64,000 nt of DNA from Engelhardtia mirabilis (GTDB lineage Bacteria > Planctomycetota > UBA1135 > GCA-002686595), in the NCBI GenBank assembly GCA_007751255.1, contig CP036296.1, positions 1,860,001 through 1,924,000 on the forward strand, given 5' to 3'. The notes under the pieces were generated by a model. The model was not told where the DNA came from. It did not search any database and saw only the letters and a program-made list of their open reading frames with translations. The position numbers and the translations under genes were made by a program. This document shows, piece by piece, positions 10,360-35,040 of the stretch (its first letter is position 1; each line of letters opens with the position of its first letter).

Positions 10360-10438
<79 letters not shown>

Positions 10439-10576: not shown

Positions 10577-11722
10577 GTGAAGACAGCCAAGATCCCGACA
10601 CTCAAGAGAACCAAGCGCGGGTACGCCTATGCCCGCTTCAACGGCCGCCAGCAGTGGTTCGGCCGCTACGACGACCCCGCGGCGCACCAGGCGTTCCAGG
10701 AGCACCTACAGCGCTGGCTCGCCAATGGGGGCGAGGACCCAGACGCCGAGCTCGGCGACCTGACCGTCGCGGACCTCGTTGCGAGGTTCCTGCTCCACGC
10801 CGAGAGGTACTACCGACGGGCGGACGGTACGCCGACCCAGACCGTCGAGGCGTTCGTCTACGCCTTCCGTCCGCTGATGCAGCTCTTCGCGAGCACGCGC
10901 GCGGAGGACTTCTCGCTGCAGTGCCTGAAGCTGGTGCGGGAGCGGATGCTCGATGACGCGCTGGCCCGCAAGACGGTCAACATCCGGGTCTCACGCCTCG
11001 TGCAGCTGTTCAAGTGGGGGGCCGAGGAGGAGCTCGTCTCTGCCAGCACCTACCAGGGGCTGACCGTCCTGCGAAACCTCCAGGCGGGCAGGAGCCGGGC
11101 GCGCGAGACCGAGAAGCGCCGGCCTGTGTCACGCGCGGACGTCGACGCCGTCCTTCCGCACGCCTCCCGGCAGATCGCGGCGATCGTGGAGCTGATGTGG
11201 TGGAGCGGGATGCGGTCGGGGGAGGCGGTGGCGATGCGTCCACGGGATCTCGAGCGATCCGGCGAGGTCTGGTTCTACCGGCTCGACCACCACAAGGCGG
11301 CGCACCACGGGCACGTTCGTCGAGTCGCGATCGGCCCGCATGCTCAGGAGATCCTCCGGCCGTTCCTCGACCGGGTTCCGCGGCCCGACGACTCCCTCCC
11401 GCTCTTCAGTCCCCGAGAGGCGGAGGACGAGCGCAACGCGGCTCGGAGACGACGCCAGGGCTCTCGGCGCCGCCGCGCCGACCTGCGTGACGCCTACGGT
11501 GTCCCCGAGCTGCGTCGTGCCGTCCAGCGCGCCTGCGACCAAGCCGGCATCGATCGCTGGACGCCTCACCAGCTACGGCACGCCGCCGGGACGCGCCTGC
11601 GTGAGGAAGCCGGCCTCGAAGCGTCACAGCTGATCCTCGGTCACCGCAACGCGAACACCACCGAGATCTACGCCGAGGTCAGCGAGCGGCGACGGGTCGA
11701 GTTCGCCCTCCGGTTCGGCTGA
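10577..11722 (+). CDS. int: Tyrosine recombinase/integrase of the element
   Basis: The 381-residue product starts at a GTG at 10577, 140 bases inside attL. An N-terminal DNA-binding region (ARFNGRQQWFGRYDD, residues 19-33) and a SAM-like core-binding domain (about 60-165) precede the catalytic domain. Catalytic residues can be placed: R213 in SGMRSGE, K240 in the beta-hairpin, H331 and R334 in HQLRH, H356 in GHRNANTTE and nucleophile Y365. All six are present, so the enzyme should be active in integration and excision at the tRNA-Pro site. Position and orientation beside the tRNA are typical of island integrases, especially the planctomycete type. Confidence 0.94.
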   Translation: MKTAKIPTLKRTKRGYAYARFNGRQQWFGRYDDPAAHQAFQEHLQRWLANGGEDPDAELGDLTVADLVARFLLHAERYYRRADGTPTQTVEAFVYAFRPLMQLFASTRAEDFSLQCLKLVRERMLDDALARKTVNIRVSRLVQLFKWGAEEELVSASTYQGLTVLRNLQAGRSRARETEKRRPVSRADVDAVLPHASRQIAAIVELMWWSGMRSGEAVAMRPRDLERSGEVWFYRLDHHKAAHHGHVRRVAIGPHAQEILRPFLDRVPRPDDSLPLFSPREAEDERNAARRRRQGSRRRRADLRDAYGVPELRRAVQRACDQAGIDRWTPHQLRHAAGTRLREEAGLEASQLILGHRNANTTEIYAEVSERRRVEFALRFG

Positions 11723-12753: not shown

Positions 12754-13071
12754 ATGAGACTCATAGCGGCCCTCGCCCTGCTCGCGCTCTTGCCCGCGGC
12801 TCACGCTAAACAACCGGGTCTCGCCGGCGTTTCCGACGAGGTCTCCGAGGGTGCCGGGGCCTCGGACTGGGCGAGCATCCGCGCCATCCGCGATGACGGC
12901 AACATCCTGGCCGCGAGTCGCCTGGCTGGCCATGCAAACCCTCGGAGGACGATGCGGGTGTACGCCCACGCCTTCGACCACGACATGCTGTCCGGCGTCC
13001 AGGCCCTCGCCGAGCACCTGGACAGGTCCGTCGGGGAATCCTTCGACGAGCTCTTCTCCGAGGACGAGTAG
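12754..13071 (+). pseudogene. Remnant of a second tyrosine recombinase (C-terminal part)
   Basis: The open frame encodes 105 residues from the ATG at 12754. Its last 65 residues look like the C-terminal catalytic end of a tyrosine recombinase: ILAASRLAGHANPRRTMRVYAHA contains the GH...T..YAH signature with the nucleophile tyrosine. The arginine and HxxR motifs that should precede it are missing, replaced by an unrelated hydrophobic N-terminus that happens to resemble a signal peptide. It is therefore a truncated, chimeric remnant. Its TAG stop shares one base with the GTG start of the HEPN gene (TAGTG), so it may still be translated and couple to that gene. Confidence 0.65.
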
Positions 13072-13868
13072 TGCCTCGAATCCGATCCACCAGCAGGGAG
13101 GAGCTCAAGGAGTGGTTCGATGAGGTGCTCATCCTCGACATCTTCCGCTTCGACAGGGCGTATGGCCTCCTCGAGACCGTTGGCACCCACGCAGACCGAA
13201 TCAACGCCGACCCGACCAACTTCGGCGAGCTGTTCGGGACGATCCAGGATCTGGCGAAGACCTCGGCACTCGTCCACGCCGCTCGCCTCTTCGACAGTCC
13301 AAGAGGGAGGAATAGGCCACGATCGCTGGTCACGTTGCTCAACGACCTCGCGGACGGCGATACCGAGCTGCCGGCCCTCGAAGCTCGAGAGGAGCTCATG
13401 GACTTCCTTCGCCGGACTGGGATTCGCAACGACGCAGGGTCAGATCGCGAGCTCCTTCGATTGACTGGCGAGGCGATGGGGGCCCAGCTCGACGAGGAGC
13501 AGATCAGCGCTCGACTCGACCGCTTCCGCAAGATCCGCAACAAGCGGATCGTTCATCACGAAGGCGCAGCATTCCACGTGCGTCAGTCGTGGAAGGATGT
13601 GCATGCGCTGGTCGACGAAGCTCGGAGCATGCTCGGAGTCCTTGGCTTCGCGTTCTTCCGCACCGTCTACATCCACTCAGGACACGAGTGGACACTGTGC
13701 GGCGACGCGACTCGGCCCTCTCGGGCACTCGAGCTGCTCCTGACCGACCTGGAGATCATCGAGGACGAGGGACCGCACGGCGCGCACATGCATGAGCACC
13801 GGAAGAAGAAGATCCGAGAGCAGCGATCCGAGCGGAGGGGGCAGGCCGACGGCGCTAGCGACGCCTAG
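13071..13868 (+). CDS. HEPN-domain protein, AbiU2-like
   Basis: The 265-residue product starts at a GTG sharing one base with the preceding stop. It is mostly helical. Residues 151-163 contain the HEPN ribonuclease signature RNxxxxH (R156, N157, H162, in RFRKIRNKRIVHHEG), placed after two long helices as in the AbiU2 branch of HEPN proteins. Residues 10-75 and 175-235 fit the flanking helices; the tail is highly basic. HEPN proteins with this motif usually act as RNases in abortive infection or toxin-antitoxin modules. No dedicated antitoxin is apparent beside it. It faces the NucS-like nuclease gene, with 19 bases between the two ends. Confidence 0.75.
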   Translation: MPRIRSTSREELKEWFDEVLILDIFRFDRAYGLLETVGTHADRINADPTNFGELFGTIQDLAKTSALVHAARLFDSPRGRNRPRSLVTLLNDLADGDTELPALEAREELMDFLRRTGIRNDAGSDRELLRLTGEAMGAQLDEEQISARLDRFRKIRNKRIVHHEGAAFHVRQSWKDVHALVDEARSMLGVLGFAFFRTVYIHSGHEWTLCGDATRPSRALELLLTDLEIIEDEGPHGAHMHEHRKKKIREQRSERRGQADGASDA

Positions 13869-13887: not shown

Positions 13888-14808
13888 TCAACTCGCCTCG
13901 TAGCTCGCCTGCAGCAGCGGCTTGGCTCGCTCGAGGTCTTCGCGCGAGTGCAGACCCACCTCGAGATCGCCGGTCCCCAAGTGCCCGATCTCTCGAACGT
14001 TGCGCGTGAAACCCTCTTCGAGCGTGATCGAGTTCGGATCGAGCTTCAAGTACACGGTGAGCCGTTTCTTGCTCGGGTAGACCTCGACGCACGCGAAGTT
14101 CTTGATCCGCTTGAACGCCACGTAGTACTTCAGCGTCTTCTCCTGGACGTCGTCCCCGAGAGCCTGCAGGTAGGCACGCAATTCCGTGTAGAGGTCAAGC
14201 AGATCGCCTTCGATGGCGTCGAGGACGTCGGAGATCGTCCTGTAGGTGGGCTTGGTCCCGGACGGTTCTCCGGTGGGCTCCTCGACAACGATGGCCTCCG
14301 TGGCGGTCGTGGCGTTCACGAGCTCGAGCAGCAAGAGCTCGCCGCCGAAGTACCTGTAGCGGATCAGCTCGATGTTGCGGTTCATCTGCTGGACGGCGTG
14401 CTCGTCGTACCGCGTGAACCCGCCAGCGATGCACAGCAGTCGGGGCGTGGTCCAGTCAATCGCCTCGGCCGCCTCCTGCCCGAGCCGCTCGATGACGAGC
14501 AGCTTGAACTCAGCGCGGTGATCGAGGAGCCAGTCGAGGTAGAACAGGCCCTGGTTGATGACGTTCTCGTTCGTCGAGCGCTTGTACTCGATGATGACCG
14601 GACAGCCGTTCTCGTCGATCCCGAGCGTGTCGATCCGCCCGCGATGCTTGGCCCCAGTCGAGTACTCGCTGCCGAGGAAGCGCACCCCGAGGAGGGTCTC
14701 GAGGTTCTGCTCCATGAGCGTCTGGAGGGAGCGCTCGAGTCTCGCGGCCTCCCCCGAGATCTCGCGGGCGTTCCCGGAGCGGATGTCGAACAGCTTGATG
14801 TCGCTCAT
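13888..14808 (-). CDS. NucS-like PD-(D/E)XK nuclease with C-terminal DUF5655-like domain
   Basis: The 306-residue product starts at the ATG at 14808. The N-terminal half carries a NucS/RecB-type active site: D60 in GRIDTLGID, then E74 and K76 in VIIEYKR, followed by a conserved NQGLFYLDWLLDH helix. The C-terminal 130 residues (LLDLYTELRAYLQALG... YVAFKRIKNFACVEVYPSKKRLTVYL) match the DUF5655 layout often fused to such nucleases. The catalytic residues are intact. It follows the SNF2 gene by about 100 bases on the same strand, so a helicase-nuclease pairing is plausible. The DNA substrate is unknown. Confidence 0.82.
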   Translation of the reverse strand: MSDIKLFDIRSGNAREISGEAARLERSLQTLMEQNLETLLGVRFLGSEYSTGAKHRGRIDTLGIDENGCPVIIEYKRSTNENVINQGLFYLDWLLDHRAEFKLLVIERLGQEAAEAIDWTTPRLLCIAGGFTRYDEHAVQQMNRNIELIRYRYFGGELLLLELVNATTATEAIVVEEPTGEPSGTKPTYRTISDVLDAIEGDLLDLYTELRAYLQALGDDVQEKTLKYYVAFKRIKNFACVEVYPSKKRLTVYLKLDPNSITLEEGFTRNVREIGHLGTGDLEVGLHSREDLERAKPLLQASYEAS

Positions 14809-14911: not shown

Positions 14912-14929
14912 TTCAGCCTCGAGGCTGAA
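14912..14929. repeat. 18-bp perfect palindrome over the SNF2 stop codon
   Basis: The sequence TTCAGCCTCGAGGCTGAA reads the same on both strands. The stop codon of the minus-strand SNF2 gene lies in it (14913-14915). As RNA it would form only a loopless stem, so a protein-binding site is as likely as a terminator. Confidence 0.55.
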
Positions 14930-17900
14930 TGTGGCCGCGACCGAGCGGTCTCTCCTCGGAGTCCAGAACGAACTGGACGCGATCTTGGCTCAGGCCGAGA
15001 AGCCGACTCCGCTCGCCCGAGACGGTGACGAGCCTGCCCGTCGGGGCCGTGACGCGCGTCACTGCCGTCAGTGCCCTCACCGCCCCTAGCTCAGGCACGC
15101 GGAGGGGAGGTGAGAAATCGAGTCGCTCGGCGAACCTCATAACTCCGTCTTCCTCTTCGACGGCCGACGAGCTACTGACATCGAACGCCGCCAGGTGACC
15201 AGCTTCTGATAGAGCCGAACTTCCTACGTGCAAGCCGGTCCACTTGCAGACTTCGTACTCATCCGCCAGGCGTAGCCGACCGTCCCATTGGCACCTTGTC
15301 ACGTTCTCCGGGCGACTTGCACGACCGCTCACGTCCGAGGTTCGTGCCTCAGACTCGATGATCCAACTTCCAAGATCGAGCGCGTCTTCGACCATCTCGG
15401 TCTTCATGGCCATCCGACCTGATACGGCGCATTCGACCAAGAGTGAGGGGCGAACTCTGCGCCCGCTCACGGCGGACTCAGCTAGCTCGGAGGGCAGCAG
15501 GAGGTCTCCCGTCACGCTACAAGGTTCCAGCTCGTCGGCAAGCGCGAGCTGACCCGACATCTCGCTGGCCTTCAGAAGCCGCTTGTCCACCAACAGGTTG
15601 CTCACGGCAGATCGTTCGAGCTCGCTCGGAAGCCCCGCGACTCCCGATCTCTCACACTTCTGCAGGATGTCCTTCCGGCAGCGCGTTCCGGAGATGGATG
15701 ACGGAGCGAGCAGCTCTCGGTCGACCAGCTCGTGTGTAACCATGCACTCTTCTACCTCATCGATGAGGAGGGTCCTCTTCGTCGCGCGACAAGTTGCCTG
15801 TTCGTCAGGTCCGCCTAGCCGTCCAGATCGCTCAGACTTCACGGCGATCGAGCGATCGAAAGTCCGACCGCTGACGTCGGAGGTCACCGCCTCCTGTGGC
15901 AGGATCCGTTTGCCCGATGCCGCGCACTCAACGAACTCGGACCTGTGTCCGAGGAGATCGGCAGCTCCTCCCCGAGCTCCCTCATCCGCACGGAACTGTC
16001 GGCCAGAGACCTCGCTCTTCAGGATCTCGTCGAGCAGCACGACCGCTCCCGTGATCTCACATCGCACCATCTCCTCCGCGAGGCCAGACCGACCGGACGT
16101 CGCCGAATCTTGAAGCAATCGGAGGTCGGCCACCTTGCCCGAGTAGGACGATCGGCCCAGCTCGTCCGGCAAGAGCCGTACTCCAGTTACCTCACAGCAA
16201 TCGAACAGACTCGACAGAGCCTGGCGCCCCGAGCACAGCGAAGTCTCGAGAAGGGAGCGACGAACCGATTTGCCCGTCACCTCGCATTCTCCGATGCAGG
16301 TCGACGGCAGGACTCGCCCGGATTCTTCGCATTGCCTCGGCTCGGGAGCTCGGACGACGCGGCCGAGGGCAGGTGCGATCCGAAGTTCCTGCAGGTACTC
16401 CTGTTTGTCGAAGTCGAACCGTGCTTGCACGTTGACCAGGTTCTGGAGCGCGCCGGTCGCACCAACGACCTTGGTGGAGACCCTTGGAGTGAGGGAGTCA
16501 CGGTGCAGCTGCTCCAGCGCTGGGTCGCCCCCAGATCTCTCGACCTCTTCGTCCATGCGATCGACGTAGAACGTGGCGAAGTTTCCGATGTCGGTGTCGA
16601 TCTCGATGCCTTGGAGGACCGCTACTTCGAGCATCTCTCCCTGAACGACGTCGGCTGCCAGATCTATCGGCTCATCGATGATGCCGACACCATCGCCGCT
16701 CGGCGGTGCCTCGATGCCCGGTGGCTCGATGGCGACTTCGATGAGCTTCTCGTACTTGTCATGGGCAACCGACACAGCCGCTCTCACAACGACCTTCCCT
16801 TGGAAGGAAGAACCCGTGCCGTTGATTACGATCGAGTGGAACTCCAGGTCGCGTCCGAACTTGGCGAGCCAAGTACGGGCGGCGTCGGCACAGAGACCTT
16901 CGTCGATGCTCCTGTGGTCGTAGACCGCATGCTGTGCACGTCGACGCCAGATCTCACCGAGTTTCTCGAACGCTGGCTGGCCGGGGAGGTAGACACTCAC
17001 GCGGGGCCCTCCAGCAATAGCCGGCGCTACCCACCCCCTGCTGCCGGGACGCTCGAAGACGACCTCTTCTGGAGCGTAGCCGCGTCGTCGATAGACCAGG
17101 CGGCCGTGCTCGGCGTATTCGAGGGTTCCCTCCCCGGCCTCGAGGGCGCGGGTCACAAACGTCTTCGTATCCAGCCTGGGCTCGACAGGAGTGAGTGTAG
17201 GCCTCGGCGGCCCTTCGTCGTGCATCGAGTCGAGTCTCCCCAGGTTCTCCTCGACTGCCGCCTTCTCACGCTCGTAAATCTCCTTTGCGCGATCGATGCT
17301 CGCCTGGATGCTCCTCAGGCTCGCTTCGACGTCGCGTCCGCGCAGCGATCCGACGACGAGCTCGTTGATCTTCCGGACAAGCGGCTCCTCGTCTCCACCT
17401 CCGGAGTCCATGCCGTCGAGGATTCCCTCGATGTCACCGATCGAGTCGGCGATGACAGCGAGCTTCTCGACGAGGCGTGCGACGACCTTCTCCTCGACCG
17501 AGCCTTTCAACACCAGGTTGAGAATGACGACCTCGGCATGCTTGGATCCGAGCCGTTGAACACGACCGATTCGTTGCTCAAGAACCATCGGGTTCCAGGG
17601 GAGGTCGAAGTTGACGAGGACGTTTCCTGCTTGCAGGTTGAGCCCCTCAGTTCCCGCGTCCGTCGAGATGAGAACCGATACGGTCGGGGGGTCCGATACG
17701 TAGCCAGCAATCGCACGCTGATTCTCGGAGTGACGTCCGCCACGAATGAACCCGACCTGGCGGGGATCTAGCGTTCGGCCAAGCACCTCGCCGATCGCGT
17801 CCTGCGTCTCCTTGCGACCGGTGAAGATGACGAGGCGCCAGTCCGGCCCTTCGCTCTGCAGCTGCGCGACAAGCTGGACGAGAACGCGCTCCTTCGATGT

Positions 17901-19580
17901 CTGCTCGATCTGACTCGCGATCGCCGCAGCTCTCGTCGCGTCTTTCACTGACACGGAGCCTCGGTCGGCCATGTTCTGCAGCTGGGTCGCGAGCGCCCTG
18001 GGGCTGCTCATGAGCGCTTGGGCGACCGACGACTGCTGTAGGCCGTTCAGCCCTCCGATCACTTCTCCGACGAGCGAGAAGAGGGCTGACTCTCCAGGTG
18101 TTCCGTCGCACGGCAAGACTCGCAGGCGTCTCGGAGGGAAGACGAGCTTCGCGTCTGCCCGTCGTGTCCGGACCATGTACTCGCCTAAGATTCGCCGGAA
18201 CTTCACCTTGCTCCGCGGCTCGAGCTGGCGGGCGGAGCTACGTGTATCGGCGATGTAGTCGTGGAAGAAGGCGTCGGGACCACCGAGGGGATTCTCGTGC
18301 CCCTTCGCGGCGGTAAGGAGGTCCACGAGCGAGTACAGATCCCACAGCCGGTTCTGGATGGGCGTTGCGGTAAGCATGAGGACGTACCGGAACATCCTCT
18401 CACGTAGCACGCGCTGGAACTCGACCGCCGTCCTCGGCGGGTTGCTGACGCCGTGCAGATTCCGCAGCTTGTGAGCCTCGTCCAGGATCAGCATGTCGAA
18501 TGCGCCATCTTCGATCCTCGAAAGTCGATTGCGCGCGCTGTCGTAGGTCGTGATGACGACATCGATCGAGCGATCTCGAAGGGCTACGTCGAGTTGGGCC
18601 CCGCGAGCTGTGGTCGAGTCGATCGCGAACCGCTCGTACAGCTCACCCTTCCACTGGTCGAGCAGTACGGCCTTGGGCACGACGATCAGCGTTCGGTTGA
18701 CCTTGCCCCGGACGCGGAGCTCACTGAGGATGAGTCCTGCGCTGATTGTCTTGCCGAGGCCTACGTCGTCGGCAAGCAGGGCGACCGGAGCACGGCGGCA
18801 GAAGGTGATGAGGTTTTGGATCTGATGCTCGAAGGGCTCGAGGACGTCCTGCCAATGGACCCGAGCCTGGATGTCTGCGGGTCCATTGATGAGGATGGCG
18901 GGATCCATGTCCCACTCGCATGCCGCAAGATGGAGCTCGAAATGCTCTTCACTTCCGGCTGGCTCAAGCGCATCGACATCGGCGCTGGCGATTTCCCATC
19001 GAGTGGGATCAAAGGCCACTCGCTCAGCGACGGTTGGGCCGATACTCGCAGCCGTGGGTGTGTCGAACGATGCTGCTCGGAGTCCGACCTTCGACTCGAT
19101 CGGGGCGCTCGACGCACCATTCTCGGCCCCTCGCACTTTGCCGTCGGGAACCTGCGGCTCCATCGTCGAGCGGTGGGGCTTGGCCGTTGGGTCTGGAGCT
19201 CCATTAGCCGATTCGCCGATCTTCGCGATCTCGACCGAGTCATCAGTACCCCACGTCGTGACTGCCTGTGGAGTCGGGCCCTGGGCGCGCTGGCTATCCA
19301 TGCCCGCTCCGAATCGCTCGGCGTCCTCGTCGGTGCCGGTCCCATCATCGAGGTCGTCGAGCCGCTCCAGGACCCGCATCAAGAGCCTCCTGGCCCGACG
19401 GGTCTTCCTCAGCGAGAGCTCGCTCGCCATCGAGTTCAGCGAGTCGACGGTCTGCTTCTCGTACTCGAGTAGCGACTCGAGTGCCTCTATGTCCAGCTGT
19501 GCGTAGGGGCGATCCAATGGAGGCTGCGCAAGAGGTTCATTGAGTCCGGTCGGGCCGCGACACCGACCGATGGTGTCCAC
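14913..19580 (-). CDS. SNF2-family ATPase/helicase with a C-terminal array of 15-residue repeats
   Basis: The 1555-residue product is listed from the GTG at 19580; the N-terminal 200 residues are variable and a later start is possible. The SF2 core begins near residue 245. Walker A is ADDVGLGKT (270-278) and Walker B is LDEAH (366-370), followed by LTATP, with the C-lobe ending in QRIGRVQRLG near residue 700. A mixed region spans about 750-1080, then about 25 repeats of exactly 15 residues (1082-1461) and a 94-residue tail. SNF2 proteins of this type serve in several defence systems (for example DISARM DrmD), but the DISARM partners are absent. It sits between a complete type I R-M set and a NucS-like nuclease on the same strand. 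A DNA-translocase role in defence is inferred. Confidence 0.85.
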   Translation of the reverse strand: MDTIGRCRGPTGLNEPLAQPPLDRPYAQLDIEALESLLEYEKQTVDSLNSMASELSLRKTRRARRLLMRVLERLDDLDDGTGTDEDAERFGAGMDSQRAQGPTPQAVTTWGTDDSVEIAKIGESANGAPDPTAKPHRSTMEPQVPDGKVRGAENGASSAPIESKVGLRAASFDTPTAASIGPTVAERVAFDPTRWEIASADVDALEPAGSEEHFELHLAACEWDMDPAILINGPADIQARVHWQDVLEPFEHQIQNLITFCRRAPVALLADDVGLGKTISAGLILSELRVRGKVNRTLIVVPKAVLLDQWKGELYERFAIDSTTARGAQLDVALRDRSIDVVITTYDSARNRLSRIEDGAFDMLILDEAHKLRNLHGVSNPPRTAVEFQRVLRERMFRYVLMLTATPIQNRLWDLYSLVDLLTAAKGHENPLGGPDAFFHDYIADTRSSARQLEPRSKVKFRRILGEYMVRTRRADAKLVFPPRRLRVLPCDGTPGESALFSLVGEVIGGLNGLQQSSVAQALMSSPRALATQLQNMADRGSVSVKDATRAAAIASQIEQTSKERVLVQLVAQLQSEGPDWRLVIFTGRKETQDAIGEVLGRTLDPRQVGFIRGGRHSENQRAIAGYVSDPPTVSVLISTDAGTEGLNLQAGNVLVNFDLPWNPMVLEQRIGRVQRLGSKHAEVVILNLVLKGSVEEKVVARLVEKLAVIADSIGDIEGILDGMDSGGGDEEPLVRKINELVVGSLRGRDVEASLRSIQASIDRAKEIYEREKAAVEENLGRLDSMHDEGPPRPTLTPVEPRLDTKTFVTRALEAGEGTLEYAEHGRLVYRRRGYAPEEVVFERPGSRGWVAPAIAGGPRVSVYLPGQPAFEKLGEIWRRRAQHAVYDHRSIDEGLCADAARTWLAKFGRDLEFHSIVINGTGSSFQGKVVVRAAVSVAHDKYEKLIEVAIEPPGIEAPPSGDGVGIIDEPIDLAADVVQGEMLEVAVLQGIEIDTDIGNFATFYVDRMDEEVERSGGDPALEQLHRDSLTPRVSTKVVGATGALQNLVNVQARFDFDKQEYLQELRIAPALGRVVRAPEPRQCEESGRVLPSTCIGECEVTGKSVRRSLLETSLCSGRQALSSLFDCCEVTGVRLLPDELGRSSYSGKVADLRLLQDSATSGRSGLAEEMVRCEITGAVVLLDEILKSEVSGRQFRADEGARGGAADLLGHRSEFVECAASGKRILPQEAVTSDVSGRTFDRSIAVKSERSGRLGGPDEQATCRATKRTLLIDEVEECMVTHELVDRELLAPSSISGTRCRKDILQKCERSGVAGLPSELERSAVSNLLVDKRLLKASEMSGQLALADELEPCSVTGDLLLPSELAESAVSGRRVRPSLLVECAVSGRMAMKTEMVEDALDLGSWIIESEARTSDVSGRASRPENVTRCQWDGRLRLADEYEVCKWTGLHVGSSALSEAGHLAAFDVSSSSAVEEEDGVMRFAERLDFSPPLRVPELGAVRALTAVTRVTAPTGRLVTVSGERSRLLGLSQDRVQFVLDSEERPLGRGHIQPRG
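15198..16337 (-). repeat. 45-base (15-residue) coding repeat array in the SNF2 gene
   Basis: Residues 1082-1461 consist of about 25 units of exactly 15 residues, two of them degenerate and one junction shifted by a single residue. In all 23 clear units position 1 is Cys or Ser, position 4 is nearly always Ser or Thr, and position 5 is mostly Gly. Leu and Glu recur near positions 9-13. Cys units tend to read CxxTG and Ser units SxxSG, with Cys recurring every third unit over most of the array (a 45-residue super-period). The units are diverged at the DNA level, so this is an old, selected protein repeat and not a recent expansion. Confidence 0.85.
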
Positions 19581-19658: not shown

Positions 19659-21152
19659 TCAGGTACCTAGGTCTGCGAGGATACCCTCGATCTCCTCGAG
19701 CGCCGCGCGGAGGTCGTCGGCGATCTCCTGGGCCAGGACCTGCGGCTCGGGGAGGTTCGCCGAATCCTCCAGGCTCTCGTCGCGGAGCCAGAAGAGGTCG
19801 AGGCTGACCTTGTCGCGGGCGAGGAGGTCGTCGTAGGTGTAGGAGCGCCAGCGGCCGTCGGGGGTGTCCTCGGACCAGGTCGGCTCGCGGTCCTGGCGGT
19901 TCTCGGGGTGGTAGCACTCGACGAACTCGTCCAGGTCGGCGCGGGTCATGCGCCGGGTCTTGAGGGTGAAGTGCTTGTTGGTCCGCAGGTCGTAGACCCA
20001 CAGCTGCTTGGTCCAGGGGTCCTTCGCGCCGGGCTTGCGGTCGAAGAACAGGACGTTGGCCTTCACGCCCTGGGCGTAGAAGATGCCGGTGGGCAGGCGG
20101 AGCAGGGTGTGGACGTCGCACTCCTTCAGGAGGTTCCTGCGCACCGTCTCGCCGGCGCCGCCCTCGAACAGGACGTTGTCGGGCACGACCACGGCAGCGC
20201 GGCCGTGGATCGCGAGCAGGGACTTCACGTGCTGGACGAAGTTGAGCTGCTTGTTCGACGTCGTCGTCCAGAAGTCCGGGCGGTTGTAGGTGATCGTCTG
20301 CTTGTCCGACTCGCCGGCCTCATTCACGACGGTGATCGAGGACTTCTTCCCGAAGGGCGGGTTGGTGATGACCACTTCGGCGTGGGACGACGGCTCGTCG
20401 CGCAGGGCGTCGTCGGTCTCGATCGGCGGGTCGTGGTCGCCGGCGGCGTCGGGGCCGATGCCGTGCAGGTAGAGGTTCATCCCACACAGGCGCGAGACGT
20501 TGGGGACCAGCTCGACGCCGCGCAGGGCTTCGTAGCGCAGGTGGCGCTTCTGATCGCGGTCGGGGTTGAGTCCCTTGAGGAACTCGTGGGCAGCCAGCAG
20601 GAAGCCACCGGTGCCGCAGGCGGGGTCCATGACGACCTCGCCGAGCTGGGGACGGATGCACTCGATGATCGCGTCGATCACCGGCCGAGGCGTGAAGTAC
20701 TGACCCGCGCCGCCCTTCACGTCCTGGGCGTTGCGTTCGAGCAGGCCCTCGTAGGCGTCGCCCTTCACGTCGGCGGACATCGACGACCAGTCCTCGGCGC
20801 CGATCAGGTCGACGATCAGCCGGCGGAGCTTGGCGGGGTCCTGGATCTTGCTCTGGGCCTTCTCGAAGATCAGGCCGAGCATTCCGCCTTCGCGGCCGAG
20901 CTTCTCGAGCGTGTGACGGTAGTGCAGCTCGAGCTCGACGCCTTCGAGCTGAGCCGACGCGAGGTCACTCCAGCGGTAGCCCTCGGGGATTGCCTGCTCC
21001 TCGCCGGTGAGCGTCTCGCGCTCGTCGGCCATCTTGAGGAAGAGGAGGAAGGTGAGCTGCTCGAGGTAGTCCTGGTAGGACAGGCCGTCGTCGCGGAGGA
21101 CTTGGCAGTAGGACCAGAGCTTCTGGGTGATGTGATCGGACTGGCGGCTCAT
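19659..21152 (-). CDS. hsdM: Type I restriction-modification DNA methyltransferase subunit M
   Basis: The 497-residue product starts at the ATG at 21152, five bases after the hsdS stop; a longer frame would overlap hsdS heavily. The helical N-terminal domain (residues 1-140) precedes the methyltransferase core. The SAM-binding motif is DPACGTGGF (176-184) and the adenine-methylation motif is NPPF (264-267), which marks an N6-adenine methyltransferase. FTPRPVID (153-160) is typical of HsdM. With HsdS it modifies the host recognition sequence, and with HsdR it forms the restriction complex. Length and motif order are normal. Confidence 0.96.
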   Translation of the reverse strand: MSRQSDHITQKLWSYCQVLRDDGLSYQDYLEQLTFLLFLKMADERETLTGEEQAIPEGYRWSDLASAQLEGVELELHYRHTLEKLGREGGMLGLIFEKAQSKIQDPAKLRRLIVDLIGAEDWSSMSADVKGDAYEGLLERNAQDVKGGAGQYFTPRPVIDAIIECIRPQLGEVVMDPACGTGGFLLAAHEFLKGLNPDRDQKRHLRYEALRGVELVPNVSRLCGMNLYLHGIGPDAAGDHDPPIETDDALRDEPSSHAEVVITNPPFGKKSSITVVNEAGESDKQTITYNRPDFWTTTSNKQLNFVQHVKSLLAIHGRAAVVVPDNVLFEGGAGETVRRNLLKECDVHTLLRLPTGIFYAQGVKANVLFFDRKPGAKDPWTKQLWVYDLRTNKHFTLKTRRMTRADLDEFVECYHPENRQDREPTWSEDTPDGRWRSYTYDDLLARDKVSLDLFWLRDESLEDSANLPEPQVLAQEIADDLRAALEEIEGILADLGT

Positions 21153-21156
21153 GTGA

Positions 21157-22647
21157 CTATGCGATCGATGCAACGGGCTGCGCGAGGTCGGAGGACTCCT
21201 GGTCGACTCTGGAGAGGAGAGTTCCTCGGAAGGCGGAGCCAAGGAGGGAAGCTCGAAGTGTTTGTATTCGGCTCACGCAGATCTTCAACGATCCGCCAAC
21301 CTGGTCGGAGTGCGAGAGCCCCGCGTCCACGACATCGACGATCCTCGCGAGTTCAGCGATCGGCGGGAGAGGCACCACTGTCGCCTTGACCACTGTCTGG
21401 CTGATGTTCTGCTGCGTCCCACCCTTGCCTTGCCGGACGAGATGAGGACGGTGCGCGAGGAGCCACGTGAAGAGCATCCGCGATGTGAGCAGTACAGGAT
21501 GCGCGAACGCGATCGCCTGGTTTGTTGCCATCTCGATCGTCGAGATACCGAGCTTGCCGATCGAGCCGTACATCGCGAGCAAGACTGAATCGGACGGCAA
21601 GAGCTTGGCGGAGCTCTCGGCGAGCCCAAGGGGTGTGATCGTCGACTCGGTGGAGCCGACCGGCCCGTCGGTGAGGTCTCCGATCACAGCCCAGGGTATT
21701 TCGCCGCCGTAGTACTCAGCCTGCCCACGCTTCGGTGTGCCGCCGCTACCCCAGACCGCGATCTGTTCGAGCGATGTCCAACACCACCCCTCCGGCAGCT
21801 CGGGGAGGCCGTGGAGGTCGGGTTCGGCGGGCTCCTTGTACTTGGCCTTCCACTTGTCGTTCTTGGGCGGCTTGCCCTTGGCGAGCATCTTCTCGAGCTC
21901 GGCTTCCTCCCAGCGGCGGCGGCGTTCGGCGAGGATGCGCTCGAGGAGGACCGAGGCGGGCTCGTAGTCGCGGCCCTCGGCGCGGGCGAGCTCGGCCTCG
22001 GTCGGGACCAGGCGCCCCTCGACGGCGGCCTTGAGCACCGAGGCGCGGTAGCGCTTCAGGTTGCGCTGGACCCGTTCGAGGTTGGCGACGGCGTCGTCGA
22101 GGCGGGAGAAGTAGGAGTCGAGGGCGGATGCGATCGCTTGCTGTACGGCGAGCGGAGCTAAGGGGTACTTCACGGCCTTGAATCGCGCGAGGCTGATCTT
22201 CCGCTGGGCGACACCCTTGGTCTGGTCCAAGATCTGCTCGCGCACTGCCGGAGACCGAGTGGCATATGCCAGGAAACGCGAATCTGCGACGCTGGGATCG
22301 ACGCTCCACTTGACACAGTCGGCGGTGATGATCGCGTCCGGTGCGCCATGCGGGTAGATCGCAACGTCACCAGGCGGGTCGCCCATCTTGGTTATCAGGA
22401 TGTCTCCTCCTGATGCTCGATGGGCTGCAAGTTCTTCGGCCTTCGCTGGCGACACGCACGGCTCATCAGAGCGGCAAAAGTCCTTCGCGCGAATGTTCCG
22501 TACGAAGACCAGAGGTACCCCGTGGTCCACGTAGTCGACCACCTTGAGGTTGCTTCCGAAGGGGCCGATCGCGAGGGCGTGTCGCCCGGACGTAGCTGTA
22601 TCGGTCGGCGTCACCCATCTCCAGCCTTCAGGCAAGTCATCGCTCAT
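21157..22647 (-). CDS. hsdS: Type I restriction-modification specificity subunit S
   Basis: The 496-residue product has two target-recognition domains (about residues 1-165 and 290-440), each beginning with the family pattern LPEGWxW (residues 5-11 and again near 287). Each is followed by a long helical spacer (about 170-270 and 440-490) that sets the spacing of the bipartite site. The first spacer holds a lysine-rich stretch (KMLAKGKPPKNDKWKAKYKEP). The ATG at 22647 overlaps the hsdR stop by four bases. The recognised DNA sequence cannot be read from the protein; both half-specificities look intact. Confidence 0.94.
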   Translation of the reverse strand: MSDDLPEGWRWVTPTDTATSGRHALAIGPFGSNLKVVDYVDHGVPLVFVRNIRAKDFCRSDEPCVSPAKAEELAAHRASGGDILITKMGDPPGDVAIYPHGAPDAIITADCVKWSVDPSVADSRFLAYATRSPAVREQILDQTKGVAQRKISLARFKAVKYPLAPLAVQQAIASALDSYFSRLDDAVANLERVQRNLKRYRASVLKAAVEGRLVPTEAELARAEGRDYEPASVLLERILAERRRRWEEAELEKMLAKGKPPKNDKWKAKYKEPAEPDLHGLPELPEGWCWTSLEQIAVWGSGGTPKRGQAEYYGGEIPWAVIGDLTDGPVGSTESTITPLGLAESSAKLLPSDSVLLAMYGSIGKLGISTIEMATNQAIAFAHPVLLTSRMLFTWLLAHRPHLVRQGKGGTQQNISQTVVKATVVPLPPIAELARIVDVVDAGLSHSDQVGGSLKICVSRIQTLRASLLGSAFRGTLLSRVDQESSDLAQPVASIA

Positions 22648-25505
22648 GCGGTCAGCACCTGGTTCAGCTCATGGAGTAGATCCTCAAGCTGTGCTCCGAG
22701 AACCCGCCGGACCGCACCCAGCCCGCCTTCCTCAGCGAACGGCGCGAAGTCGAAGTCATCGACCGTCACCTCGGCACTGGTCTCGATGTGGTCGCGCATC
22801 ATCTCCAGCCAGCGGAGCTGCTCGTCGGTGAACTCTCGGCCCGAGTTGCGCTGCTGGGCGACCCAGTGGTCGAAGCGCTCGTGGACGCGGGTCGCGAAGG
22901 GTACCAGCTCGTCGTCCCGATGCAGCGCCACGCGCACGAGCGACACGACATCGGTCAGCATCCGCTTGCTCGACCCTCCGCCGCGGACGCTCTTGCCCAT
23001 GGCTTCGTACGCTCGCCAGAGCTTCTCCGGCGTCCACGACCGCGGCGGTGCCTGGATCGCCTCGGCCAGGGCTTTGATGTCGGCGTAGGTCAGCCGCTTC
23101 TGGTATGGCGCGCTGTAGAAGACGCGCAGAGCCTCGTATTCGTCGCGGTGCTCCTCCAGGAACTGCTCGAAGTCCTGCACGAGCGCCTTGGCCTTCTCCT
23201 TGGCCTCGGGGCTTGCCCCAGCCTCGAGCAGCTCGTCGCGTGAGACCTCGTCGACGAGCTGCTCGGTGTCGCGCTTGACGTCCTGGATCAGCCGGCGCAG
23301 CTCGGGGTTGTCGGCGAGGGGCCGGGTGGCCTGGCGCAGGAGGTCTGACGTGGCGCTCTGGAGGGCCTCCTCGGACGGCTCCTCGCCCTCGGGCACCTCG
23401 GTCGCCACGCGGGCGGTCTCCAGCCTGCGGTCGGGGTCGAGGGCCTCGATGATCCCTCGCGAGAGGTCACCCAGGTCGGCGCCGCCGGAGGCCAGGACGA
23501 TCCGCGCGCAGTCCTCGGGCTCGACCTGCTTGTCCAGGCGCGCGAGGCGGCTGGCGAGGGAGCTGAGGTAGTCGGGGTTGGTGCCGCCCATGGCGACGTG
23601 CTCGAGCAGCTTGGCGAAGGCGACCGACTTCGCCCGCTCGAGGGGCTGGGTGTCGGCGATCTGGGTCTCGGTCATCCCGACGCAGTCGACGATCACGAAG
23701 TGTGTCTTGGCGCGGGCGTCGGGCGTGACGGCCTTGAGGGCGTCGTCGTCGATGGTGCGGACGCCGCGCCCCTTCATCTGCTCGAACAGGAGCCGGCTCT
23801 TCACCGCGCGCATGAACATCACGATCTCGATCGGCTTGATGTCCGTGCCCGTCGCGATCATGTCCACGGTGACGACGACGCGGGGGAAGAAGGAGTTGCG
23901 GAACTCCTGGATCAGGCTCTTCGGGCTGACGCCGGTGACCTTGTAGGTGATCTTCTTGCAGAACTCGTTGCCGCGGCCGAACTCCTCGCGGACGGTCTCG
24001 ACGATGTCCTCGGCGTGGTTGTCGTCCTTGGCGAAGATCAGGGTCTTCGGAACCTCGCAGCGGCCGGGGAAGATCTCGGTCGTCACGCGCTCCTTGAAGG
24101 TGCGGATGATCGTGCGGATCTGGTCGCGCGAGACGGCGCGGCGGTCGAGCTCCTCGGCCGAGTAGGAGACGTCCTCATCGGGTGTGTGCCAGCGCTTCTG
24201 GCGCGTCTCACGGTCGCGGTAGTGGACCTGGGTACCGGCCTCGACGGTCGAGCCCTCCTGGCTGATGCGCGTCAGGATCTTGTAGACCTCGAAGTCGACG
24301 TTGTTGCCGTCGGCCACGGCGCGCTCGTGGTCGTACTCCATCACGAGGTTGCCGCCGAAGAACCCGTAGGTCTGGGCCGAGGGCGTCGCCGTGAGGCCGA
24401 TCAGGAAGGCGTCGAAGTACTCGAGCACCTGGCGCCAGAGGGTGTAGATCGAGCGGTGGCACTCGTCGACGACGATCACGTCGAAGTACTCGGGCGGGTA
24501 GTTGGCGTTGTAGACGACCGGGAGCGGCTCGTTGATCAGCGGATCGGCCGCGGTGAACTTCGACTCCTCTTCGTCGTGGGTGAGGAGGTCGGGCTCGCCC
24601 TTGAGCATCGAGTACAAGCGCTGGATCGTCGTGATGACGACCTTGCTGGCCTGGTCGATGGTGTTCGACTGCAACAGCTGCACGTTGTACAGCTCGGTGA
24701 ACTTGCGGTTGTCGTCGGCGGTGCGGTAGCCCTGGAACTCCTTCTCGGCCTGCTCGCCGAGGTTGGAGCGGTCGACCAGGAACAGGACGCGGCGGGCGCC
24801 GGCGTACTTGATCAGCCGATAGATCTGCGTGATGGCGAAGATCGTCTTGCCCGAGCCGGTCGCCATCTGGACCAGGGCGCGTGGGCGGTTGTCGCGCAGG
24901 GACCGCTCGAGGTTGCCGATCGCCTCGACCTGGTTCGGGCGCAGGCCGCTGGGGTCGAGGGGCGGGAGGGTCGGGATCCGCGAGCGGAACGAGGACGGGC
25001 GCGTGTCGTCGTACTCGGCGTCGTAGGCGTCGGTCGACTCGGCCACCTGGTCGGCCCAGCCGCGCAGGGTCTTGGACGCGAGCCACTCGGCCAGGGTCGA
25101 GGGCCGGTGGATGTGCGGGACCGTCGACAGGGTGCGGGTCCGGGGGTCAGGGTCGAGCCGGTTGATGAAGGCCGTCTCCACACCGGTGCTGAGGTAGAGG
25201 AACGGCAGCGGCCGGACCGGGGCGGTCAGGTCGTCGGGGAGCCCGGCGGAGTAGCGCTCGGCCTGGGTCTCGACGCCTGAGAGGGCGTGGCCGACCTTCT
25301 TGGCCTCGAGCACGCCCACGGCCTGGCGGTCGACGATGAGCAGGTAGTCGGCGAAGCCGTGGCCGCTGGCCAGCGCGAACTCGCGGACGGCGACGCCTTG
25401 GCCGGCGGCCAGGTTGATGTCGTCGCGGTTCTGAACGACCCAGCCGGCCTGCGCGAGGGCGGCGTCGATCTGCTGGCGGGCGAGCTCTTCGGGGGTGGGG
25501 GGCAT
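22644..25505 (-). CDS. hsdR: Type I restriction endonuclease subunit R (EcoEI-like)
   Basis: The 953-residue product starts at the ATG at 25505. The N-terminal nuclease domain shows the PD-(D/E)XK residues D53, E67 and K69 (ADYLLIVDRQAVGVLEAKK). The SF2 translocase follows with Walker A ATGSGKT (215-221), VDECH (346-350), the LTATP block near 380, and motif VI in EQMKGRGVRTIDDD. The C-terminal third matches the EcoEI R C-terminal helical domain. All catalytic residues appear intact, so with HsdS and HsdM the system should be able to cut unmodified DNA. It is first in the hsdR-hsdS-hsdM transcription unit. Confidence 0.95.
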   Translation of the reverse strand: MPPTPEELARQQIDAALAQAGWVVQNRDDINLAAGQGVAVREFALASGHGFADYLLIVDRQAVGVLEAKKVGHALSGVETQAERYSAGLPDDLTAPVRPLPFLYLSTGVETAFINRLDPDPRTRTLSTVPHIHRPSTLAEWLASKTLRGWADQVAESTDAYDAEYDDTRPSSFRSRIPTLPPLDPSGLRPNQVEAIGNLERSLRDNRPRALVQMATGSGKTIFAITQIYRLIKYAGARRVLFLVDRSNLGEQAEKEFQGYRTADDNRKFTELYNVQLLQSNTIDQASKVVITTIQRLYSMLKGEPDLLTHDEEESKFTAADPLINEPLPVVYNANYPPEYFDVIVVDECHRSIYTLWRQVLEYFDAFLIGLTATPSAQTYGFFGGNLVMEYDHERAVADGNNVDFEVYKILTRISQEGSTVEAGTQVHYRDRETRQKRWHTPDEDVSYSAEELDRRAVSRDQIRTIIRTFKERVTTEIFPGRCEVPKTLIFAKDDNHAEDIVETVREEFGRGNEFCKKITYKVTGVSPKSLIQEFRNSFFPRVVVTVDMIATGTDIKPIEIVMFMRAVKSRLLFEQMKGRGVRTIDDDALKAVTPDARAKTHFVIVDCVGMTETQIADTQPLERAKSVAFAKLLEHVAMGGTNPDYLSSLASRLARLDKQVEPEDCARIVLASGGADLGDLSRGIIEALDPDRRLETARVATEVPEGEEPSEEALQSATSDLLRQATRPLADNPELRRLIQDVKRDTEQLVDEVSRDELLEAGASPEAKEKAKALVQDFEQFLEEHRDEYEALRVFYSAPYQKRLTYADIKALAEAIQAPPRSWTPEKLWRAYEAMGKSVRGGGSSKRMLTDVVSLVRVALHRDDELVPFATRVHERFDHWVAQQRNSGREFTDEQLRWLEMMRDHIETSAEVTVDDFDFAPFAEEGGLGAVRRVLGAQLEDLLHELNQVLTA

Positions 25506-34994: not shown

Positions 34995-35040
34995 ATGGGG
35001 TTGCAGAGGTCGGAGGTTCGAATCCTCACGCCCCGACCAT
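34995..35040 (+). repeat. Right attachment repeat (attR), 3' tRNA-Pro fragment
   Basis: The 46 bases repeat the tRNA-Pro gene from anticodon loop to CCA with a single change (A at 35028, where the tRNA has T). The sequence to its left does not fold as a tRNA 5' half, so this is a fragment and not a gene. The change would put a G-A mismatch in the T stem. Confidence 0.92.

Follow-up and report, generated by a model that had tools for sequence, protein, structure and literature searches.

A 15-residue repeat array on a planctomycete SNF2 ATPase, probably derived from a zinc-knuckle solenoid

What kind of structure is built by a long, strictly spaced repeat at the C-terminal end of an SNF2 ATPase, and where did it come from? 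The protein that raises this question belongs to Engelhardtia mirabilis (Planctomycetota) and is encoded by an open frame of 1555 codons with homologues in Planctomycetota, located at 14913-19580 on the reverse strand of the window, by which we mean the whole stretch of 64,000 nucleotides that was analyzed (contig CP036296.1, positions 1,860,001 to 1,924,000). Genomes used for comparison carry G numbers and their loci L numbers. We propose that the array is probably a zinc-knuckle solenoid without metal, derived from the zinc-type array of a separate partner protein. Periodicity, the predicted solenoid, the correspondence of units and the replacement of ligands, linker homology, fusion, proteins of mixed type and the ends of the surrounding element were all computed.

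The repeat array and its predicted fold

With the Walker motif DDVGLGKT and the motif DEAHK, the protein qualifies as an SNF2/Swi2 ATPase. Its helicase core occupies residues 266-716 (17433-18785), where PF00176 (266-501) and PF00271 (564-677) both score over their cut-offs and solved SNF2 structures align up to about residue 716. The core is followed by a linker domain at about residues 802-1076 (16353-17177), recognized by its hhalign homology to the N-terminal part of separate zinc-array partners, by the array itself at residues 1084-1459 (15204-16331), and by a tail at residues 1460-1555 (14916-15203) delimited by alignment with L047, all on the reverse strand. A register search placed 24 in-register units over residues 1084-1459 and skipped an irregular stretch of 16 residues (1399-1414), so the original prediction of about 25 units of exactly 15 residues at 15198-16337 (residues 1082-1461) is borne out by 24 units and one irregular one. 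The residues it had singled out recur as well: position 1 is Cys or Ser in 23 of the 24 units (12 Cys, 11 Ser, one Gly), position 4 is Ser or Thr in 22 (15 and 7, with two others), and position 5, said to be mostly Gly, is so in 20. The strict motif [CS]xx[ST]G occurs 20 times in residues 1077-1470, with a single occurrence (1162) off the register, and 13 pairs of motifs are spaced by exactly 15 residues; 20,000 composition-preserving shuffles gave a mean of 0.87 motifs, a maximum of six, and never more than one pair at that spacing.

A ladder of Cys every 45 residues had also been described. All seven of its Cys are present (1084, 1129, 1174, 1219, 1264, 1309 and 1354), but the ladder is not strict: further Cys lie outside it at 1099, 1279, 1384, 1430 and 1445, and the succession of a Cys unit, two Ser units and a Cys unit holds in three of the six intervals and fails in the others. 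The self-identity of the array is 0.258 at lag 45, 0.217 at lag 30 and 0.195 at lag 15, against 0.081 expected, and units three apart agree in Cys/Ser class (p = 0.0055; 2,000 permutations). When seven homologues were tested by permutation, the three-unit period was significant in G560 (0 of 2,000) and G478 (0.008) and not in G148, G207, G689, G112 or G189, the last of which shows a four-unit period instead (p = 0.002). We therefore rejected the 45-residue period as a feature of the family; given the permutation results across homologues, it is the 15-residue unit that constitutes a family property.

These data bear on whether the array still holds metal. The 12 Cys at position 1 and the seven lying exactly 45 residues apart could be read as Cys of neighboring coils that share metal sites, a reading we consider improbable. 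None of the 24 units contains a four-ligand set, which speaks against the metal-binding Cys faces once suggested for this protein; position 1 swaps between Cys (63%) and Ser (32%) over 273 metal-free units of the family, as a ligand would not usually do; and five of the seven homologues show no significant three-unit period. Moreover, 246 metal-free-type units of the family have Cys at position 9 in only two cases and His at position 12 in five. The array of the window is most likely free of zinc, and the idea of metal binding suits its relatives instead.

The solenoid expected from the sequence was recovered by structure prediction, which returned a fold repeating every 15 residues, not a disordered one, with fair to high local confidence. 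For the array alone, AlphaFold2 gave a mean predicted local distance difference test (pLDDT) of 81.2 and block pLDDT of 80-96 over residues 1279-1398; with a two-row alignment, block pLDDT was 80-93 over window residues 1231-1380 and fell to 23-36 in the tail, from model residue 411 on, where the model is of low confidence. A PDB fold search with the array model produced no significant match, and its best structural neighbors in the VIA-align view were all weak and mostly zinc fingers (FYVE, synaptotagmin-like and LIM). In each unit, two short strands would flank a knuckle turn, C1xx[ST]4-G5, and a one-turn helix (positions 10-12) would follow.

Zinc-type partner arrays and their relation to the window array

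A tblastn search with the long array of G478 led to a Haloferax plasmid and a Halorhabdus plasmid, on each of which a separate partner protein, composed of a linker and a 15-residue array, is encoded after an SNF2 gene. The Halorhabdus partner has 1095 residues and 41 units, 25 of them with the full ligand set; in Halorhabdus tiamatea the pair is WP_339325559.1 (SNF2-related) and WP_020931433.1 (the hypothetical partner). The Haloferax partner, from Haloferax lucentense pSVX82-3 (L054 3724-7857), is a frame of 1378 codons with 52 units, 33 of them complete, in a place where public annotation shows hypothetical proteins on the opposite strand. We rejected the possibility that this match (19% identity) was noise, as the frame opposite the annotated genes holds a zinc-type array. 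The Halorhabdus partner matches 15 plasmid records, all haloarchaeal, three at full length including the array and 12 in the linker only. Zinc-type units are found in three haloarchaeal partners, and three of the six partners examined stop after the linker.

Partners of this type are also present in other Planctomycetota, where the zinc-type unit profile matched six of 392 genomes and all six frames read contain arrays. Five of these loci were fetched with their flanks, the sixth (G263) entering with its profile match and array reading. In four of the five, the partner has an SNF2 gene next to it; at the fifth, the contig stops 0.9 kb upstream. The distance in G372 is 2.4 kb, and in G234 the SNF2 gene is split into two overlapping frames, which were searched in pieces, unjoined, and excluded from the tree. 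The partner-linked planctomycete SNF2 proteins are closer to that of Halorhabdus than to that of the window (322 vs. 158 bits for G278, 298 vs. 177 for G372, and 197 vs. 171 for G317). In searches of viral contigs with three haloarchaeal partners, no relative was found.

The zinc-type unit, CxxCGxxxCxxHxxx with ligands 1, 4, 9 and 12, aligns position by position with the window unit, in which ligands 4, 9 and 12 are most often replaced by Ser/Thr, Leu and Glu. The consensus is C-A-T-C-G-E-T-V-C-P-D-H-L for 84 haloarchaeal units and C-A-V-S-G-R-R-V-L-P-D-E-L for the 273 metal-free ones, matches N-terminal of residue 300 having been dropped from this consensus set (330 in later counts). With the four ligand columns removed, the two profiles correlate at r = 0.46 in register and at no more than 0.28 in the other 14 shifts, a value matched by 4 of 20,000 column permutations. 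If Gly5 is removed as well, the correlation is 0.43 in register and at most 0.38 elsewhere (15 of 20,000 permutations as good); an earlier comparison on fewer zinc units had given 0.39 (0 of 20,000). The linkers that precede the arrays tell the same story: hhalign aligned those of fused and partner proteins over 286 columns with a probability of 97.1 and E = 6.5e-11, against 0.44 for the reversed control and 0.75-0.92 for five column shuffles, and with haloarchaeal partners only, the comparison still gave 85% probability and E = 5.9e-6.

Both unit types are also found within one protein, in G112 (full zinc-type units at 1014 and 1029) and G189 (at 1245), and in each the full zinc-type units precede the CxxTG array. 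G189 is the first branch of the fused clade in the SNF2 tree (support 100/99 for the other seven), from which G112 and three paralogues of the window genome, all with long branches, were removed, as they were from the linker comparison. Over eight zinc-type arrays with 196 units, all four ligands are kept in 96, and 34 units lack a single ligand: ligand 4 in 20, ligand 9 in seven, ligand 1 in five and ligand 12 in two. Seven of the 20 losses of ligand 4 are by way of Ser or Thr, as in CDITGRPFCASHGRR. We rejected the idea that loss always begins at ligand 4, as single losses of ligands 9, 12 and 1 occur too.

Because linkers, unit profiles, proteins of mixed type and single-ligand losses agree, we regard the two arrays as the same thing. 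Compared with the partner family, the window protein has the homologous linker and the tandem 15-residue units, and ligands 1, 4, 9 and 12 are together in 0 of its 24 units. The lack of a significant PDB fold match, and the fact that neither Pfam nor NCBIfam has a family that describes the unit, would suit a beta-solenoid of a new kind without kinship to zinc fingers, its likeness to the partner arrays being the convergence of two Cys-containing 15-mers. We give this little credence, considering that both unit types coexist in single proteins, that single ligands are lost within zinc arrays, that the non-ligand columns correlate best in register, and that a homologous linker stands ahead of both arrays, with an SNF2 ATPase fused to or encoded beside each. 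What does weigh against equating the two arrays is the SNF2 tree, which is midpoint-rooted and does not fix the order of the clades.

Under the derivation that we favor, the zinc-type array would originally have resided in a partner protein encoded beside the SNF2 gene, as in haloarchaea and other Planctomycetota; in the lineage of the window the partner would have been fused to the ATPase, its units losing their metal ligands and packing instead through Cys/Ser1, Ser/Thr4 and Leu9. LIM arrays hold protein partners, and by analogy the array could be a stiff arm by which the SNF2 motor is kept on its target, a protein or a nucleic acid, its length varying through gain and loss of units. The lack of zinc, the mode of packing, the direction of change, the function of the arm and any role in defense are inferences that go beyond the computed results listed at the outset. 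If correct, archaea and Planctomycetota would offer a natural series from a zinc-bound to a metal-free repeat protein, with zinc-type, single-loss and metal-free units in living relatives and some in one protein, so that stability without metal would become testable. The order of ligand loss would likewise become testable in this family, in which 20 of the 34 single losses affect ligand 4, more than any other ligand. The array would, moreover, offer a modular metal-free scaffold, and the work would name a family of SNF2-motor partners that is missing from the profile libraries searched.

Metal-free homologues and their genomic setting

A profile search of genome contigs with the two-row alignment found a single locus, on a contig of G148, which belongs to the same order as the window genome. 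Whole-genome searches found the array in three of 154 genomes of the window's class and seven of 392 of its phylum, in six of 251 genomes of G478's order and in one of the 29 genomes of G207's class; each count includes the window genome or the genome on which the search was centred. Among phages the window array was without a match. Proteins in which SNF2 and array are fused are present in the window, G148, G189, G207, G478, G560, G689 and G717; their arrays count 12 to 52 units. In G616 the array occupies a separate frame behind one that is SNF2-like, as judged from its first residues, and weak matches in G479 and G591 were unconfirmed when the frames were read. The long array of G560 (L128 5636-11383) contains blocks that look duplicated by eye (this was not measured), and such blocks suggest that array length may change by duplication of several units at once.

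In G112 (L015 3265-8682) about 42 units accompany a decayed SNF2 core in which Walker A is lost (DEDGDGARQ vs. DDVGLGKT). This suggests that the array can be retained without the motor, and it could also be cited, together with the codon-position guanine-cytosine content of the window gene (0.69/0.47/0.74), whose third-position value is low next to those of the neighboring hsdM (0.93) and hsdR (0.95), in favor of a drifting remnant without function. That explanation has hardly any chance of being right, as the register is conserved in homologues with an identity of only 43% (G148) to 53% (G207, SNF2 part), and Gly5 and Leu13 are kept in 78% and 50%, respectively, of the 273 units.

The window gene is cargo of an element of 24.6 kb (10393-35027) inserted at a tRNA-Pro gene (ggg; 10360-10437, forward strand). 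The element is bounded by a 33-bp direct repeat, whose left copy lies inside the tRNA gene (10393-10425) and whose right copy (34995-35027), on the same forward strand, matches it exactly; a tyrosine integrase (10577-11722, forward; PF00589, 5.5e-16) adjoins the tRNA. Upstream of the SNF2-array gene and on the same strand stand a type I methyltransferase, HsdM (19659-21242, reverse; PF02384, 3.4e-65; PADLOC MTase_I, 7.8e-191), a specificity subunit, HsdS (21157-22647, reverse; PF01420, 8.8e-21), and a restriction subunit, HsdR (22644-25505, reverse; EcoEI_R_C, 7.3e-39; ResIII, 1.2e-37). The downstream neighbor is a DUF5655 protein (13888-14808, reverse; PF18899, 2.5e-12), which scores as the phage-defense candidate PDC-S18 (PADLOC, 2.1e-150) and has a sub-threshold NucS_C match (PF01939, 21 of 24 bits). 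The element also encodes an AbiU2-like HEPN protein (13071-13868, forward; PF18734, 2.7e-10). Its right part encodes an unassigned protein of 1054 residues, a PDDEXK_1 nuclease, a DUF932 protein and an M78 peptidase.

Five of the eight fused loci (the window, G148, G207, G560 and G478) lie near methyltransferase, restriction or defense-candidate genes. The neighbor in G148 is a Schlafen-type helicase scoring as PDC-S41; G478 has GmrSD and a methyltransferase 4-5 kb away; and in G207 and G560 the SNF2-array gene is accompanied by a type III methyltransferase and adjoined by a UvrD-type helicase (L049 9422-11650 and L128 11497-13587, respectively). The N-terminal part of the helicase of G207 has a weak HigB-like match, and a frame of 139 codons upstream of the SNF2 gene (L049 5282-5698) has a start that resembles that part. 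At the other three fused loci the scanned neighbors are ordinary: one in G189 (a kinase), two in G689 (MacB/FtsX) and two in G717 (a dienelactone hydrolase and a cytochrome-type protein). These three loci, and the place of RapA among the SNF2 proteins of solved structure that are nearest to the window protein, leave some room for a RapA-like remodeller of RNA polymerase or another nucleoprotein that merely hitch-hikes on a mobile element; we find this doubtful in view of the five loci listed above and of a score of 128.6 bits against the RapA cut-off of 576. The restriction-modification setting suggests that the array assists the recognition or remodelling of foreign DNA, and in the window the arm could work with the type I genes of the element. 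As a whole, an SNF2 family with an extendable zinc-knuckle arm, one branch of which became metal-free unit by unit and in the window serves target recognition in restriction-based defense, is a possible account that we advance tentatively.

Two further groups of proteins with Cys-containing units were seen alongside. One is a standalone family without a helicase (L050 7011-8315; L051 7297-8577), with about four CxxTG units, a CxxC...CxxC pair and a conserved tail; it is present in 42 of 149 genomes of its taxonomic family, and 11 further frames that were read have 359-642 codons. These planctomycete proteins share the units, and linker homology was not established (E = 0.015 against the fused linkers and 0.0005 against those of the partners). 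The gene upstream in G269 and G465 is presumably dprA, going by its first residues. The other group comes from viral contigs, in which an HPH...C stretch is followed by CxxC arrays, several with pairs exactly 15 residues apart (L087 6456-7688; L065 12371-13927; L085 630-1817; L103 2073-3362); we take the HPH...C stretch to recall E2-like enzymes, and the three proteins scanned against Pfam (L087, L065 and L085) had no match. A pattern scan of viral contigs gave 44 stretches, nine of which have an open frame holding at least two CxxC pairs 15 apart, some of these probably being wrong frames.

Comparison with known families and systems

The original prediction did not recognize the repeat as a named one, and no described family matched it. 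A Pfam search of the array to E = 10 gave a single family, DUF2093, whose match spans 12 residues and scores 16.1 bits where the cut-off is 25. In the proteins scanned, array, linker and partner were covered neither by a Pfam or NCBIfam model above its cut-off nor by a PADLOC row among the matches listed (25 of the 43 PADLOC rows were inspected; PHROGs was not included). We found no description of the repeat or of its pairing with an SNF2 partner in the open-licence literature by title or start of abstract.

The motor itself belongs to the same ATPase superfamily as DrmD of DISARM, BrxH of BREX, DpdE and RapA, and the profiles of the first two score well on the window protein: BrxHI, at 2.4e-57, is the best PADLOC profile among the matches listed, and DrmD reaches 1.7e-53 in PADLOC and 2.1e-60 in NCBIfam. 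Nevertheless, we rejected its identity as DrmD, with 205.1 bits against an NCBIfam equivalog cut-off of 610 (NF038317) and 182.6 against 950 (NF038318), and as RapA, which failed its NCBIfam cut-off (NF003426) as described above; for DpdE the score was 178 bits against a curated cut-off of 500. The best-matching stretches of DrmD, BrxH, DpdE and RapA on the window protein lie in the helicase core, and no Drm family was among the matches listed by PADLOC for the seven window neighbors scanned.

As for the array, the FYVE, LIM and PHD zinc fingers, with treble-clef and knuckle folds, are among the known families nearest to it. LIM and FYVE domains have eight zinc ligands at family-specific spacing; the window array lacks any four-ligand unit, and Pfam lists neither LIM nor FYVE for it at E ≤ 10. 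Another of the closest systems is the haloarchaeal SNF2 protein and its partner, which share with the window protein the SNF2 ATPase, the homologous linker and the 15-residue array, and which differ from it in being two genes instead of one and in that the array keeps its CxxC...CxxH/D ligands or is missing. A precedent for the loss of metal is the U-box, a relative of the RING that lost its zinc ligands and is counted among the treble clefs in which residues chelating zinc have been lost to a variable extent (PMC4999995). We propose the same kind of event for the array, whose fold would have outlasted its metal ligands. Zinc folds that survive without zinc are known for single domains, of which the U-box is one, whereas the family described here runs to 12 to 52 tandem units, with zinc-type and single-loss units surviving in relatives. 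That zinc folds can lose their zinc is already known (PMC4999995); the array would add a probable case of a knuckle solenoid free of metal, next to a sister family of zinc type.
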